Source: Phormidesmis priestleyi ULC007
GTDB taxonomy: Bacteria; Cyanobacteriota; Cyanobacteriia; Leptolyngbyales; Leptolyngbyaceae
Assembly (NCBI RefSeq): GCF_001895925.1
Contig: NZ_MPPI01000023.1
Span: forward strand, 1-64,000
Length of the DNA stretch: 64,000 nt
Direction of reading: 5' to 3'
The stretch's first letter is position 1. The number at the start of each line of letters is the position of its first letter. Below the pieces are notes generated by a model. It did not search any database and had not been told where the DNA came from. It worked only from the letters and a program-made list of their open reading frames with translations. The position numbers and the translations under genes were made by a program. Below are positions 49,295 to 52,646 of the stretch, one piece after another.

Positions 49295-51793
49295 ATGAGT
49301 CAGAGTTGGCGTGGATTGGATTGGTTGCCAGGAGTGCTTGCAGGAACCGCAACAGTTGCGATCGTGGTCAGTTATCAACAGGCTGCCTCAGCCTTGACCT
49401 TCGCTGAGGTTCGCAAAATCGCAGTTCCCGTTACGGTGATGATTAGCGATCAAACTGGTGGCGGATCTGGAGTCATTGTTGCCAAACAGGGAAACACTTA
49501 CACAGTTTTAACCAACCGTCACGTAGCTGATAAGGATACCGCTTACCGCATTCAAACTTCTGATAGCGATGTTCATGAGGCAGCCAGAGTAGTTAAGCGC
49601 TTTCAGGATGTTGACTTGGCTGTTTTACAGTTCGATAGTGCCAAAAACTATCCAGTTGCCACTTTGGGAAACTCTGGTCTAAGTAGTGTGGGCGATACAG
49701 TTTTTTCCTTTGGCTATCCTGGAATTTACGATCGCAAGGCTAATACTTTTGAGCAAAGGTATCGTGATTCTGAAGGCATCGTTCTAGATCTCAATGCACA
49801 AAATGGTCAAGGATATCTTATTAAACACCGTGCCGATACTCCACGCGGTATGAGTGGCGGTCCTACGTTTGATGCGAAAGGTCGGTTGATTGCAATCAAT
49901 GGCTTGGTTGGTACAAGCAGTATCTCTAAAGACATACCGCCTGAAATCGATGAGAAAGGTCAGATTCCTATCTACGAGGGCAAAGTTGAACTTAGAATTT
50001 ACACTGGTGAGTATTTCTCAATTCCCATCAATACAGCGATCGCCCAGCTAACCAAGGCGGGAATTAATGTTTCAAACCTGAAGATAGACAAAACCCCACC
50101 GCCGAATAATAGTGAACGCATAGCTAATCCTAAGAATGCTGGAGATTTCTATCTTCGCGCCAGCATTTCTCGTCAAAAGGGAGATGTTCGCTCCGCGATT
50201 AATGATTACAGCAAAGCGATTGAGTTAGACTCGAATTTTATTGATGCTTATTTTAGTAGGGGCGTAGCTTTTGCGGAAGTGGAAGACTGGTCAAAAGCTA
50301 TTGCTGACTTTGAGGAAATCATTGCTCGCCCTTCAGGTGATCTCAAGATATATGCCTACAGCAACCGAGGGGCAGCCCGTGCTGCATTGGGTGACAGACA
50401 GGGTGCGATTGAAGATTACACCCAAGCCATCCGCCTTAACCCCAAAGAAGCTTCTGCCTATTACAACCGAGGGGTAGTACACTCCGACTTGGATGACAAA
50501 CAGGGTGCGATCGAAGATTACACTCAAGCCATCCGCCTTGACCCCAAAGACGCTTCTGCCTACACCAATCGAGGGGTAGTCCGCGCCGAATTGGGTGACA
50601 AACAGGATGCGATCGAAGATTACACCCAAGCCATCCGCCTTGACCCTAAAAACGCTCTTGCCTATTACAACCGAGGTAGAACGCGCTCAGAGTTGGATGA
50701 CAAACAGGGTGCGATTGAAGATTACACCCAAGCCATCCGCCTTGACCCTAAATACGCTGCTGCTTACAACAACCGAGGGGTAGTGCGCTCTGACTTGGAT
50801 GATAAACAGGGTGCGATCGAAGATTACACTCAAGCCATCCGCCTTGACCCTAAAGACGCTTCTGCCTACATCAATCGAGGGATATCCCGTGTCAACCTGG
50901 GTGACAGACAGGGTGCGATTGAAGATTTTACTCAAGCCATCCGCCTTGACCCCAAATCTGCTTCTGCTTACTACAACCGAGGGAACGTGCGCTCAGAGTT
51001 GGATGACGAACACGGTGCGATTGAAGATTTTACTCAAGCAATCCGCCTTGACCCCAAATCTGCTTCTGCTTACCACAACCGAGGGGTATCCCGTGTCAAC
51101 CTGGGTGACAGACAGGGTGCGATCGAAGATTACACTCAAGCAATCCTCCTTAAGCCTAAATACGCTGCCACCTATTACAACCGAGGGAAAGTGCGTTTCG
51201 ACTTGGGTGACAAACAGGGTGCGATTGAAGATTACACCCAAGCCATCCGCCTTGACCCTAAAGACGCTGTTACCTATTATCACCGAGGGAAAGTGCGCTT
51301 CGACTTGGGTGACAAACAGGGTGCGATCGAAGATTTCGCCCAAGCAGCCCGCCTTGACCCCAAACTTGCTACGGTTTACTACAACCTAGGTAGAGTGCTC
51401 TTCAATCAGGGCAACAGACAGGGTGCGATTGAAGCTTACACTCAAGCCATCCGCCTTGACCCTAAATCTGCTACGGCTTACTACCACCGAGGGAAAGTGC
51501 GCTCAGAGTTGGGTGACAAACAGGGTGCGATCGAAGATTACACTCAAGCCATCCGCCTTGACCCTAAAGACGCTTCTGCTTACAACAACCGAGGGAAAGT
51601 GCGTTCAGAGTTGGGTGACAAACAGGGTGCGATCGAAGATTACACTCAAGCCATCCGCCTTGACCCTAAAGACGCTTCTGCTTACAACAACCGAGGGAAA
51701 GTGCGTTCAGAGTTGGGTGACAATCAAGGCGCGCTTGAAGATTATATTCAAGCCATGCACCTTGAAGCCATCGAAAAAATTCAACTGTACTAG
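49295..51793 (+). CDS. trypsin-like serine protease with about 16 TPRs
   Basis: An 832-aa exported or membrane-anchored protein. The N-terminus holds a hydrophobic segment (LPGVLAGTATVAIVVSYQQ). The trypsin-like domain (about 35-230) has the triad His in LTNRHVADKD, Asp in FQDVDLAVLQFD and Ser in PRGMSGGPTFDA. Two degenerate TPRs (about 285-350) and fourteen near-identical TPRs (about 355-830) follow; the typical unit is GDKQGAIEDYTQAIRLDPKD. The TPRs are encoded by 102-bp tandem DNA repeats with identical units, so copy number may vary. Similar protease-TPR proteins are common in filamentous cyanobacteria and the role of the TPR part is unknown. The start is ATG 49295 after GAGG. Confidence 0.87.
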   Translation: MSQSWRGLDWLPGVLAGTATVAIVVSYQQAASALTFAEVRKIAVPVTVMISDQTGGGSGVIVAKQGNTYTVLTNRHVADKDTAYRIQTSDSDVHEAARVVKRFQDVDLAVLQFDSAKNYPVATLGNSGLSSVGDTVFSFGYPGIYDRKANTFEQRYRDSEGIVLDLNAQNGQGYLIKHRADTPRGMSGGPTFDAKGRLIAINGLVGTSSISKDIPPEIDEKGQIPIYEGKVELRIYTGEYFSIPINTAIAQLTKAGINVSNLKIDKTPPPNNSERIANPKNAGDFYLRASISRQKGDVRSAINDYSKAIELDSNFIDAYFSRGVAFAEVEDWSKAIADFEEIIARPSGDLKIYAYSNRGAARAALGDRQGAIEDYTQAIRLNPKEASAYYNRGVVHSDLDDKQGAIEDYTQAIRLDPKDASAYTNRGVVRAELGDKQDAIEDYTQAIRLDPKNALAYYNRGRTRSELDDKQGAIEDYTQAIRLDPKYAAAYNNRGVVRSDLDDKQGAIEDYTQAIRLDPKDASAYINRGISRVNLGDRQGAIEDFTQAIRLDPKSASAYYNRGNVRSELDDEHGAIEDFTQAIRLDPKSASAYHNRGVSRVNLGDRQGAIEDYTQAILLKPKYAATYYNRGKVRFDLGDKQGAIEDYTQAIRLDPKDAVTYYHRGKVRFDLGDKQGAIEDFAQAARLDPKLATVYYNLGRVLFNQGNRQGAIEAYTQAIRLDPKSATAYYHRGKVRSELGDKQGAIEDYTQAIRLDPKDASAYNNRGKVRSELGDKQGAIEDYTQAIRLDPKDASAYNNRGKVRSELGDNQGALEDYIQAMHLEAIEKIQLY
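50355..51783. repeat. 102-bp tandem DNA repeats encoding TPRs, about 14 copies
   Basis: Fourteen units of 102 bp coding for the C-terminal TPR array of the protease. The units at 51511-51612 and 51613-51714 are identical over 102 bases, which points to recent duplication or gene conversion. Because the period is a multiple of three, the other five frames stay open for long stretches; those frames are not genes. Confidence 0.93.
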
Positions 51794-51869: not shown

Positions 51870-52142
51870 ATGCCTCATCCCAACCTCAGCAGCGAGGAAA
51901 TCGCTCAACGTGGTGAAGAACTATACCAGAAGCATATTCGTGCTCAAGTCGAAACAACGGAGAATATCGGCAAAATCATTGCGATCAACCTCACCACAGG
52001 CAATTACGAGATTGATAAAGACCTGCTTGTGGCTTGTCATCGCTTAAAAGCCAACCAACCCGATGCCGTCACCTGGGTAGAGCGAATCGGCTATGATGCC
52101 GTCTATGCGATCGGTGGCACATTAGTTAAGACAGCAGAGTGA
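51870..52142 (+). CDS. small conserved cyanobacterial protein
   Basis: A 90-aa protein starting at ATG 51870, chosen because GGAGGAGG lies 11 bases upstream (51851-51858). An in-frame ATG at 51828 would add 14 residues. It begins MPHPNLSSEEIAQRGEEL and contains VETTENIGKIIAINLTTGNY and WVERIGYDAVYAIGGTLV. It resembles small cyanobacterial proteins usually encoded just upstream of a clan AA aspartic protease, and indeed the start of such a protease follows with a GTGA overlap, but that gene is broken here. No catalytic motif is seen. The pair may be toxin-antitoxin-like or a regulator and protease; this is unresolved. Confidence 0.7.
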   Translation: MPHPNLSSEEIAQRGEELYQKHIRAQVETTENIGKIIAINLTTGNYEIDKDLLVACHRLKANQPDAVTWVERIGYDAVYAIGGTLVKTAE

Positions 52143-52190
52143 TCAGCGGGACAGTGGTTGGGCTTCAGGCACGCATGGTCATCATTTTGT
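52139..52190 (+). pseudogene. 5' remnant of a clan AA aspartic protease gene
   Basis: GTG 52139 overlaps the upstream stop. The first 16 codons (ISGTVVGLQARMVIIL) match the start of the small aspartic proteases normally paired with the upstream gene. The expected continuation, including the VDTGF catalytic motif, is missing. The frame continues open to 52399, but its text beyond about 52190 is not protease-like and runs across the coding frame of the next protein. So the protease has probably been deleted except for its 5' end. Confidence 0.5.
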
Positions 52191-52257
52191 ATTCTTCCGA
52201 ACGTGCAGAAGTAGGAGATGCGAAAATAACTATGGCAGAATTGAGGGATGAGCTATC

Positions 52258-52434
52258 TTACCGACTACCGAACAAAACTTCACCAGTGTTTACGTCTGCC
52301 AGATGCTCTCTAACTTTTATCGAAGCGTTGAACTGTTTCGATTTAACGATCGAACTGGTGAAATATACATCTTTGCTGGTGAAGAACTGCAAGTCGTAAT
52401 TTCTCGTGATGGAAAGTGGAGATTCATATTATGA
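52258..52434 (+). CDS. DUF6888-like protein, start codon missing or unusual
   Basis: A 58-residue frame reading LPTTEQNFTSVYVCQMLSN, then FRFNDRTGEIYIFAG and VISRDGKWRFIL, which matches the DUF6888 family. Members are short and are encoded next to DUF6887 proteins, as here. Upstream, a TGA at 52249-52251 closes the frame and no ATG, GTG or TTG lies between it and the conserved start: the first codons are GCT, ATC, TTA. Either ATC (52255) or a mutated TTG now read as TTA serves as start, or the gene is dead. A GAGGG site at 52243-52247 is well placed. The stop overlaps the next start by ATGA. Function is unknown. Confidence 0.55.
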   Translation, partial: LPTTEQNFTSVYVCQMLSNFYRSVELFRFNDRTGEIYIFAGEELQVVISRDGKWRFIL

Positions 52435-52646
52435 AGCCAAATTATGACGTGATGAGCAATGCAGAACTGAGAGCCTACTGCCTTGAGCATCGAGAAGATA
52501 TGAGTGCGCTAGAAGCTTTCTTTGCTCGTCGCAGTCCTGATTCTGAGGCGGTTTGGTTTTCTCCACCTAAAACACTAGAAGAATGGAAGCAGCAAGAAGA
52601 AGTGTTTCGAGCAGAGATTGAGAAGCGATCGCAGAAACCTAATTGA
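52431..52646 (+). CDS. DUF6887-like protein
   Basis: A 71-aa acidic, helical protein starting MKPNYDVMSNAELRAYCLEH and running to EEVFRAEIEKRSQKPN. The opening MKPNxxxMSxxELRAYxLxxR is the hallmark of the small cyanobacterial DUF6887 family. ATG 52431 is used because it overlaps the stop of the DUF6888-like frame by ATGA; a GTG five codons upstream is less likely. The two-gene unit resembles toxin-antitoxin modules in size, overlap and copy-number behaviour, but no activity is known to me. It is followed by a flavoprotein gene 15 bp downstream. Confidence 0.7.
   Translation: MKPNYDVMSNAELRAYCLEHREDMSALEAFFARRSPDSEAVWFSPPKTLEEWKQQEEVFRAEIEKRSQKPN

Follow-up and report, generated by a model that had tools for sequence, protein, structure and literature searches.

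Initiation factor IF3 discriminates against near-cognate start codons, and in Escherichia coli its own gene, infC, is autoregulated through an AUU start. To our knowledge, very few genes are described in which an AUU/AUC start is conserved. HigBA and HicAB are type II toxin-antitoxin modules with reverse gene order, and we know of no AUU/AUC start as a feature of families of this type. According to the excerpted text of PMC5472188, infC starts with AUU or AUC, a codon which is retained since weak initiation is useful. In the same excerpts, the closest described two-gene system is found, that is, sigR-rsrA of Streptomyces, whose second protein is in excess, partly through the repression of the first start by IF3 (PMC5472188).

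Segment 51870-52646 of the window (the window being the whole stretch of 64,000 nucleotides that was analysed) contains a pair of small genes which can be compared with these systems. The features of the segment are the following:

51870..52142, plus strand: intact gene of a 90-aa small protein (ORF from ATG to TGA, with homologues in its own genome and in relatives)
52139..52224, plus strand: 5' remnant of an aspartic-protease gene, with a GTG start overlapping the TGA of the small gene and about 25 homologous residues
52212..52224, no strand: junction of two modules, placed by DNA homology to the protease on one side and to the DUF6888 leader on the other
52241..52247, plus strand: Shine-Dalgarno sequence TTGAGGG of DUF6888, seen in the sequence and conserved in relatives
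52255..52257, plus strand: putative ATC start codon of DUF6888, based on ATT/ATC in the nearest relatives and on the family-wide pattern
52255..52434, plus strand: DUF6888 gene, 59 aa, by profile match to PF21828
52417..52422, plus strand: TGG AGA codons of the G-x-W-R motif, forming the candidate GGAGA Shine-Dalgarno sequence of DUF6887, from the sequence and the Arg codon bias
52431..52434, plus strand: ATGA shared by the end of DUF6888 and the beginning of DUF6887, seen in the sequence
52431..52646, plus strand: DUF6887 gene, 71 aa, by profile match to PF21826

Both genes of the second module belong to their families. DUF6888 scored 87.9 bits with PF21828, whose cut-off is 27, over positions 2-55 of the 55 in the profile, and DUF6887 72.6 bits against PF21826 (cut-off 24.2; positions 1-62 of 62). 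These Pfam families carry no function. The coupling of the two frames by a 4-bp overlap, which had been pointed out in a preliminary description of the segment, is the ATGA at 52431-52434. Elsewhere in the window, positions 49295-51793 encode a protein of 832 aa in which a trypsin-like peptidase domain precedes an extended series of TPR repeats. DUF6888-DUF6887 is read here, with a probability of about 0.7, as an intact two-gene module in which DUF6888 is kept scarce by its ATC start and DUF6887 is in surplus, the two being likely a toxin-like protein and its neutraliser.

The frame of DUF6888 is closed by an in-frame TGA (52249-52251), which is followed by GCT, by ATC (52255) and by TTA CCG ACT, the beginning of the conserved PTxxQ motif. 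As had been stated in the preliminary description, there is no ATG, GTG or TTG at the beginning of the frame at 52255-52434. Within the frame, a canonical start codon is offered only by the ATG at 52303. The sequence TTGAGGG lies 7 bases before the ATC, with an anti-Shine-Dalgarno duplex energy of -6.1 kcal/mol, and the 22-base start region occurs a single time in the window, where 0 occurrences are expected by chance. In the nearest relatives, the same codon is ATT in the two copies of genome G004, ATT in G037 and ATC in G033, and TTGAGG or a close variant is kept in front of the start. In G033, a TTG comes directly after the ATC and therefore its start is ambiguous. Two marks of a functional non-canonical start of the infC/sigR type, a conserved near-cognate codon in the absence of a canonical one and a Shine-Dalgarno sequence at working distance, are found in the window. 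A local sequencing error was rejected because relatives carry the same kind of codon. Such an error had earlier been expected to show itself by an ATG in relatives; the nearest kin have ATT/ATC, whereas more distant members of the family do use ATG or TTG. The suggestion that the start may be ATC was supported by the comparison with the nearest relatives and by the recurrence of such codons in the family, and the ATC at 52255 is very probably the start of DUF6888.

This recurrence was examined in DUF6888 loci gathered by profile and translated searches, regardless of their start codon. AUH stands for AUU, AUC or AUA, and P-1 and P-2 for the first and second codon before the conserved Pro of PTxxQ. 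For the discovery set, listed matches with E values up to about 5.6e-20 were taken, together with two others; one locus at a contig end (G062:C101) was skipped. Before counting, 24 duplicates and 28 frames in which no P-T motif could be recognised were dropped. The remaining 163 distinct loci all carry the P-T motif, and a canonical start was sought up to 12 codons upstream of the Pro. The second set consisted of the first 80 matches listed in other genomes of the phylum, with the previously sampled ones left out (the same species may recur among the named loci), and was reduced to 75 loci by the removal of two frames without the motif and three duplicates. Starts were called in both sets by one rule, which had been settled before the second set was obtained. 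The motif model applied to the second set derives from the first, and the lineages of the two sets are not independent.

In the discovery set (n = 163), ATG was found in 59 loci, so that the weak codon is not obligatory, only GTG/TTG in 41 and no canonical start in 63. An AUH codon stands at P-1 or P-2 in 60 of these 63, compared with 0/63 and 4/63 at the same places of the other two frames and with an inside-codon AUH rate of 0.106; on the counts of the other frames, a chance ATC was rejected. When an in-frame stop is also present within the 12 codons, so that no start can lie further away, AUH is found in every case (34/34). In the second set (n = 75), 30 loci are without a canonical start and 26 of them have AUH at P-1 or P-2; with a stop nearby the proportion is 18 out of 19, the exception being locus L295, with a stop codon at P-1. 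Overall, three of the 63 and four of the 30 loci do not fit. Apart from L295, these have either ATT at P-3 (L303 and L314) or other codons instead of AUH (L065, L179, L217, and L300). In L065 the codon is ACG where close relatives have ATG, and in L217 and L300 a CTG is located at P-1.

The 93 genes without a canonical start in both sets collapse to only 20 clusters at 60% identity, which means that the above counts are not independent. AUH is present in at least one member in 17 of the 20 clusters and in all members in 14. A canonical codon is located 13-61 codons further upstream in 15 of the 93 genes. AUU makes up 75 of the 86 AUH starts, compared with 244 of the 506 Ile codons inside the same genes, an enrichment indicating that it is the codon which is kept and not isoleucine. 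In other members, ATG and TTG replace AUH in the same alignment column. On a tree of 198 rows, which rests on few columns, AUH and canonical codons must have replaced each other at least 19 times, and five of these replacements are forced by well-supported branches.

As to the second gene, a DUF6887 frame is located directly after DUF6888 in 160 of the 163 loci. ATG is the start codon of each of the 155 resolved ones, in 99 of them as part of ATGA. The Arg of the C-terminal GxWR motif of DUF6888 is encoded by AGA or AGG in 91 of 96 genes, whereas these two codons account for 110 of 540 Arg positions in the rest of these genes; in the second set the respective values are 43/43 and 91/252. The W codon of this motif begins 11-14 bases before most DUF6887 starts. 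Judging from these positions and codons, TGG AGR would supply a GGAGR ribosome-binding site for DUF6887. In one locus of the genome studied here (L022, C10), DUF6888 is followed by two DUF6887 genes in tandem.

The strength of the Shine-Dalgarno sequences varies with the start codon. The duplex energy is -4 or lower in 59 of 60 AUH starts (median -7.0), a level reached by only 10 of the 59 DUF6888 loci that start with ATG (median 0.2), with a Mann-Whitney p of 1.5e-16 for AUH versus ATG in the discovery set and of 5.9e-7 in the second set. The same threshold is passed by 11 of 14 TTG starts at P-1 and by 123 of 155 DUF6887 starts. Weak codons are thus paired with strong sites and strong codons with weak ones, a pattern which fits selection for low initiation, although it is no proof of it.

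The upstream context was also compared. Users of ATG are located directly behind a small upstream ORF in 15/59 cases of the discovery set and in 6/26 of the second; in AUH loci, an upstream ORF terminates at the start in 6/59 and 0/26. A -10 box was found in 28 of 60 and in 18 of 26 AUH loci, where shuffling gave means of 11.3 and 6.0, respectively, a result which is only moderately positive. In several loci (L076, L081, L084, L092, L103, and others), a conserved ribbon-helix-helix-like gene of about 61 aa lies directly upstream of DUF6888. It ends at or over the ATG-started DUF6888, giving a three-gene operon in Nostocales-type loci; in L076 its match to RHH_1 has an E of 0.0012 and 19.2 bits, under the cut-off of 20.5. 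On plasmid pGLO7428.04 (L320), a helix-turn-helix gene occupies this upstream position. On plasmid pC052_H of Nostoc sp. C052 (L317, 798-971), DUF6888 has an ATG directly before the PT motif, and no gene is listed for it in the table of this plasmid, a table with known gaps.

From these comparisons we infer the following mechanism. Ribosomes would bind the good Shine-Dalgarno sequence in the leader and start DUF6888 at ATC (at ATT in most relatives), at a low rate, the codon being a near-cognate one against which IF3 would discriminate. DUF6887 would initiate at the ATG of the ATGA overlap with its own Shine-Dalgarno sequence, provided by the W-R codons of DUF6888, and owing to this site it would be made partly independently and in excess. 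The purpose would be to hold the first protein, likely active and toxin-like, below its partner, the likely neutraliser. By analogy, the architecture shared with sigR-rsrA suggests the same stoichiometry, that is, scarce DUF6888 and surplus DUF6887, and it is probable that the weak ATC start throttles the former relative to the latter.

Paired small genes with such overlaps resemble toxin-antitoxin units, as the preliminary description had remarked. Toxin-antitoxin logic would be the most economical reason for keeping DUF6888 scarce, in view of the patchy and multi-copy occurrence, the plasmid copies, the greater number of DUF6887 genes, and the state of G001, a genome of the same genus in which the first gene has been lost and the second is decaying. 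In detail, the family occurs in 65 of the 386 genomes of the phylum sample, the genome studied here has 8 copies of DUF6888 and 11 of DUF6887, and plasmid-borne copies also exist. In the same 39 genomes, DUF6887 outnumbers DUF6888 by 125 to 90 (summed by hand from tables). No DUF6888 was detectable in 15 of 23 DUF6887 loci, 20 of which had been picked because no DUF6888 was listed beside them, the other three being from the same genome as the window. The action of the pair as toxin and antitoxin is considered possible, if somewhat doubtful.

Alternatively, the start and the stoichiometry may be read correctly while the pair is not a toxin-antitoxin but a small regulator with its partner, or subunits of another complex, and this has a real chance of being the case, at rather less than even odds. 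Such a role agrees with the searches in Pfam, NCBIfam, and PADLOC, where no toxin, antitoxin or defence model matched the pair, with the weak fold matches described below and with the literature searched, in which no published function was found under the names DUF6888 or DUF6887. It accounts less well for a family which is patchy, present in 8 copies here and carried on plasmids, whose second gene outnumbers the first and which in a group of loci has the ribbon-helix-helix-like gene directly upstream.

The AlphaFold2 model of DUF6888 (pLDDT 92.7) consists of a helix and four strands, and that of DUF6887 is all-helical, of low confidence (pLDDT 69.7). Fold searches with the DUF6888 model returned weak rows only, and no toxin fold stood out among them. 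The highest-ranking VIA-align match, 8f69_A (Z of 6.0 with 59 aligned, at 3.3 A), does not exceed what unrelated models yield. The structures 2nvm, 2nwv, and 3d7q of XisI-like cyanobacterial proteins gave weak Z values of 3.5-3.8, and a link to this fold, first in rank in Foldseek but with an E of 0.6, is too weak to claim. Next to lone DUF6887 genes, a PIN gene was seen once (in L325, which is the same place as L343) and a ParE gene once (in L329). A swapping of partners between DUF6887 and known toxins showed no recurrence, with three PIN-like and three ParE-like frames among all loci. No phage record matched. In the literature searched on unusual starts combined with toxin-antitoxin systems, nothing describing a pair with an AUU/AUC start was found by title and abstract, and the AUU/AUC start of the family is therefore called undescribed, as far as the searches reach. 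The fullest version of the proposal, an undescribed cyanobacterial toxin-antitoxin-like family whose toxin-first order is made safe by an AUU/AUC start policed by IF3 and whose antitoxin ribosome-binding site lies inside the W-R codons of the toxin, is speculative and rather unlikely. If it is true, the module would read out initiation fidelity or the state of the ribosome, and a looser selection of starts would produce more of the first protein.

The left part of the segment bears on the integrity of the module. It had been described as a broken pair of small protein and protease, fused, as it seemed by a deletion, to the DUF6888-DUF6887 pair. The protease is indeed truncated to about 25 residues, whereas the gene of the small protein is intact. 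This protein is the usual partner of the aspartic protease and adjoins the DUF6888-DUF6887 module without being a member of it; it has 8 matches in its own genome, the window copy counted, and homologues in loci L026-L029 and L033 of relatives. The comparison with relatives recovered intact 122-aa proteases in G005 and G027 (L026 and L027), beside the same small gene. The frame from the GTG at 52139 resembles their first 25 or so residues, and the homology stops before their VDTGF stretch, so that the catalytic D-T-G region of retropepsin-like aspartic proteases is absent. At the DNA level, the homology to the protease loci continues up to 52224, while from 52213 onward the sequence is homologous to the DUF6888 leader of G001, which indicates that two modules meet there and that the junction is real. 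The abutment near 52212-52224 is therefore upheld, and its cause may be a deletion, an insertion or another rearrangement. The view of the missing ATG as a by-product of the junction is not supported.

With a truncated protease adjoining it, the DUF6888 of the window could be a decaying relic whose real start was lost by deletion, DUF6887 being still used or decaying as well. Such decay is seen at this place in G001 (L030, reverse strand, about 1501-1796), a syntenic locus that likewise precedes the FAD-dependent oxidoreductase gene and has lost DUF6888, while its DUF6887 is broken by TGA and TAG in-frame stops and a 23-base gap; an ORF further upstream at L030 is presumably an IS110-type transposase. 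The -10-like box, 33 bases before the start, also differs, being GAAAAT in the window (52222-52227) and TAAAAT in relatives, and as a result the promoter of the window copy may be weakened and the copy weakly transcribed. On the contrary, the leader with its Shine-Dalgarno sequence and ATT/ATC is common to intact relatives in other genera, the window DUF6888 has no internal stop, and its dN against kin (0.13-0.25) is well below dS (2.4 or more, or saturated). For DUF6888 genes with an AUH start, dN/dS pooled over 21 non-overlapping pairs comes to 0.10, and these genes are under purifying selection. A relic is thus improbable, and the earlier remark that the gene may be dying is not supported, given the ATT/ATC and TTGAGG of its nearest kin, the recurrence of the trait in the family and the low dN.

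Initiation at the internal ATG 52303, with the upstream frame untranslated, would make use of the sole canonical in-frame start. The product would be a protein of 43 aa without the PTxxQ motif, which is conserved across the family, and the spacing of the Shine-Dalgarno sequence suits ATC and not 52303. Moreover, 19 of the 93 genes have no ATG, GTG or TTG within 20 codons after the Pro, and five have none at all, which makes this start very unlikely.

Frameshifting or read-through from the upstream frame 52139-52399, which overlaps the start region, is hardly credible as the source of DUF6888, given that this frame derives from the truncated protease and is not shared, that an in-frame stop lies within 4 codons of the Pro in 10 of the 63 discovery loci without a canonical start (the window included), and that an upstream ORF ending at the start is rare in AUH loci, as counted above.

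The preferred reading, an intact module with a scarce first and a surplus second protein, can be set against the known systems. Like the type II toxin-antitoxin modules of reverse order, DUF6888-DUF6887 consists of two small, overlapping and co-oriented genes with a patchy, multi-copy distribution on chromosomes and plasmids, and some of its loci have a ribbon-helix-helix- or helix-turn-helix-like gene upstream. Unlike them, it matched no toxin or antitoxin model of Pfam, NCBIfam or PADLOC. With infC it shares the AUU/AUC start (as given in the excerpts of PMC5472188). However, infC is autoregulated by its own product, and DUF6888 is no initiation factor. In the genome studied here, infC (L322, about 1456) starts with ATG, so that an autoregulation of the E. 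coli AUU type is not seen at its own start.

The closest likeness is to sigR-rsrA, as far as the excerpted text of PMC5472188 describes it. In both systems the first gene has a non-canonical start (GTC in sigR) behind a strong and conserved ribosome-binding site, the genes overlap by ATGA, and the ribosome-binding site of the second gene lies inside the coding sequence of the first (PMC5472188 for sigR-rsrA), an arrangement seen in the window as well. Annotation pipelines misplace the start of sigR (PMC5472188) as they do that of DUF6888, and gene callers that accept only ATG, GTG or TTG must truncate, extend or miss DUF6888 genes, which creates a blind spot of annotation. The differences are that sigR-rsrA encodes a sigma and an antisigma factor, proteins unrelated to DUF6888 and DUF6887, that its start is GTC/GTT and not AUU/AUC, and that the repression by IF3 is demonstrated there (PMC5472188), whereas for DUF6888 it would hold by analogy. 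For the DUF6888-DUF6887 module, the pattern of start codons suggests which partner must stay scarce. While the excerpts treat sigR-rsrA as one locus per Streptomyces genome (PMC5472188), DUF6888-DUF6887 is a multi-copy family spread over a phylum, and its switching among AUU, AUC, AUG, and UUG in a single alignment column offers a natural test bed for the setting of protein ratios through the start codon.
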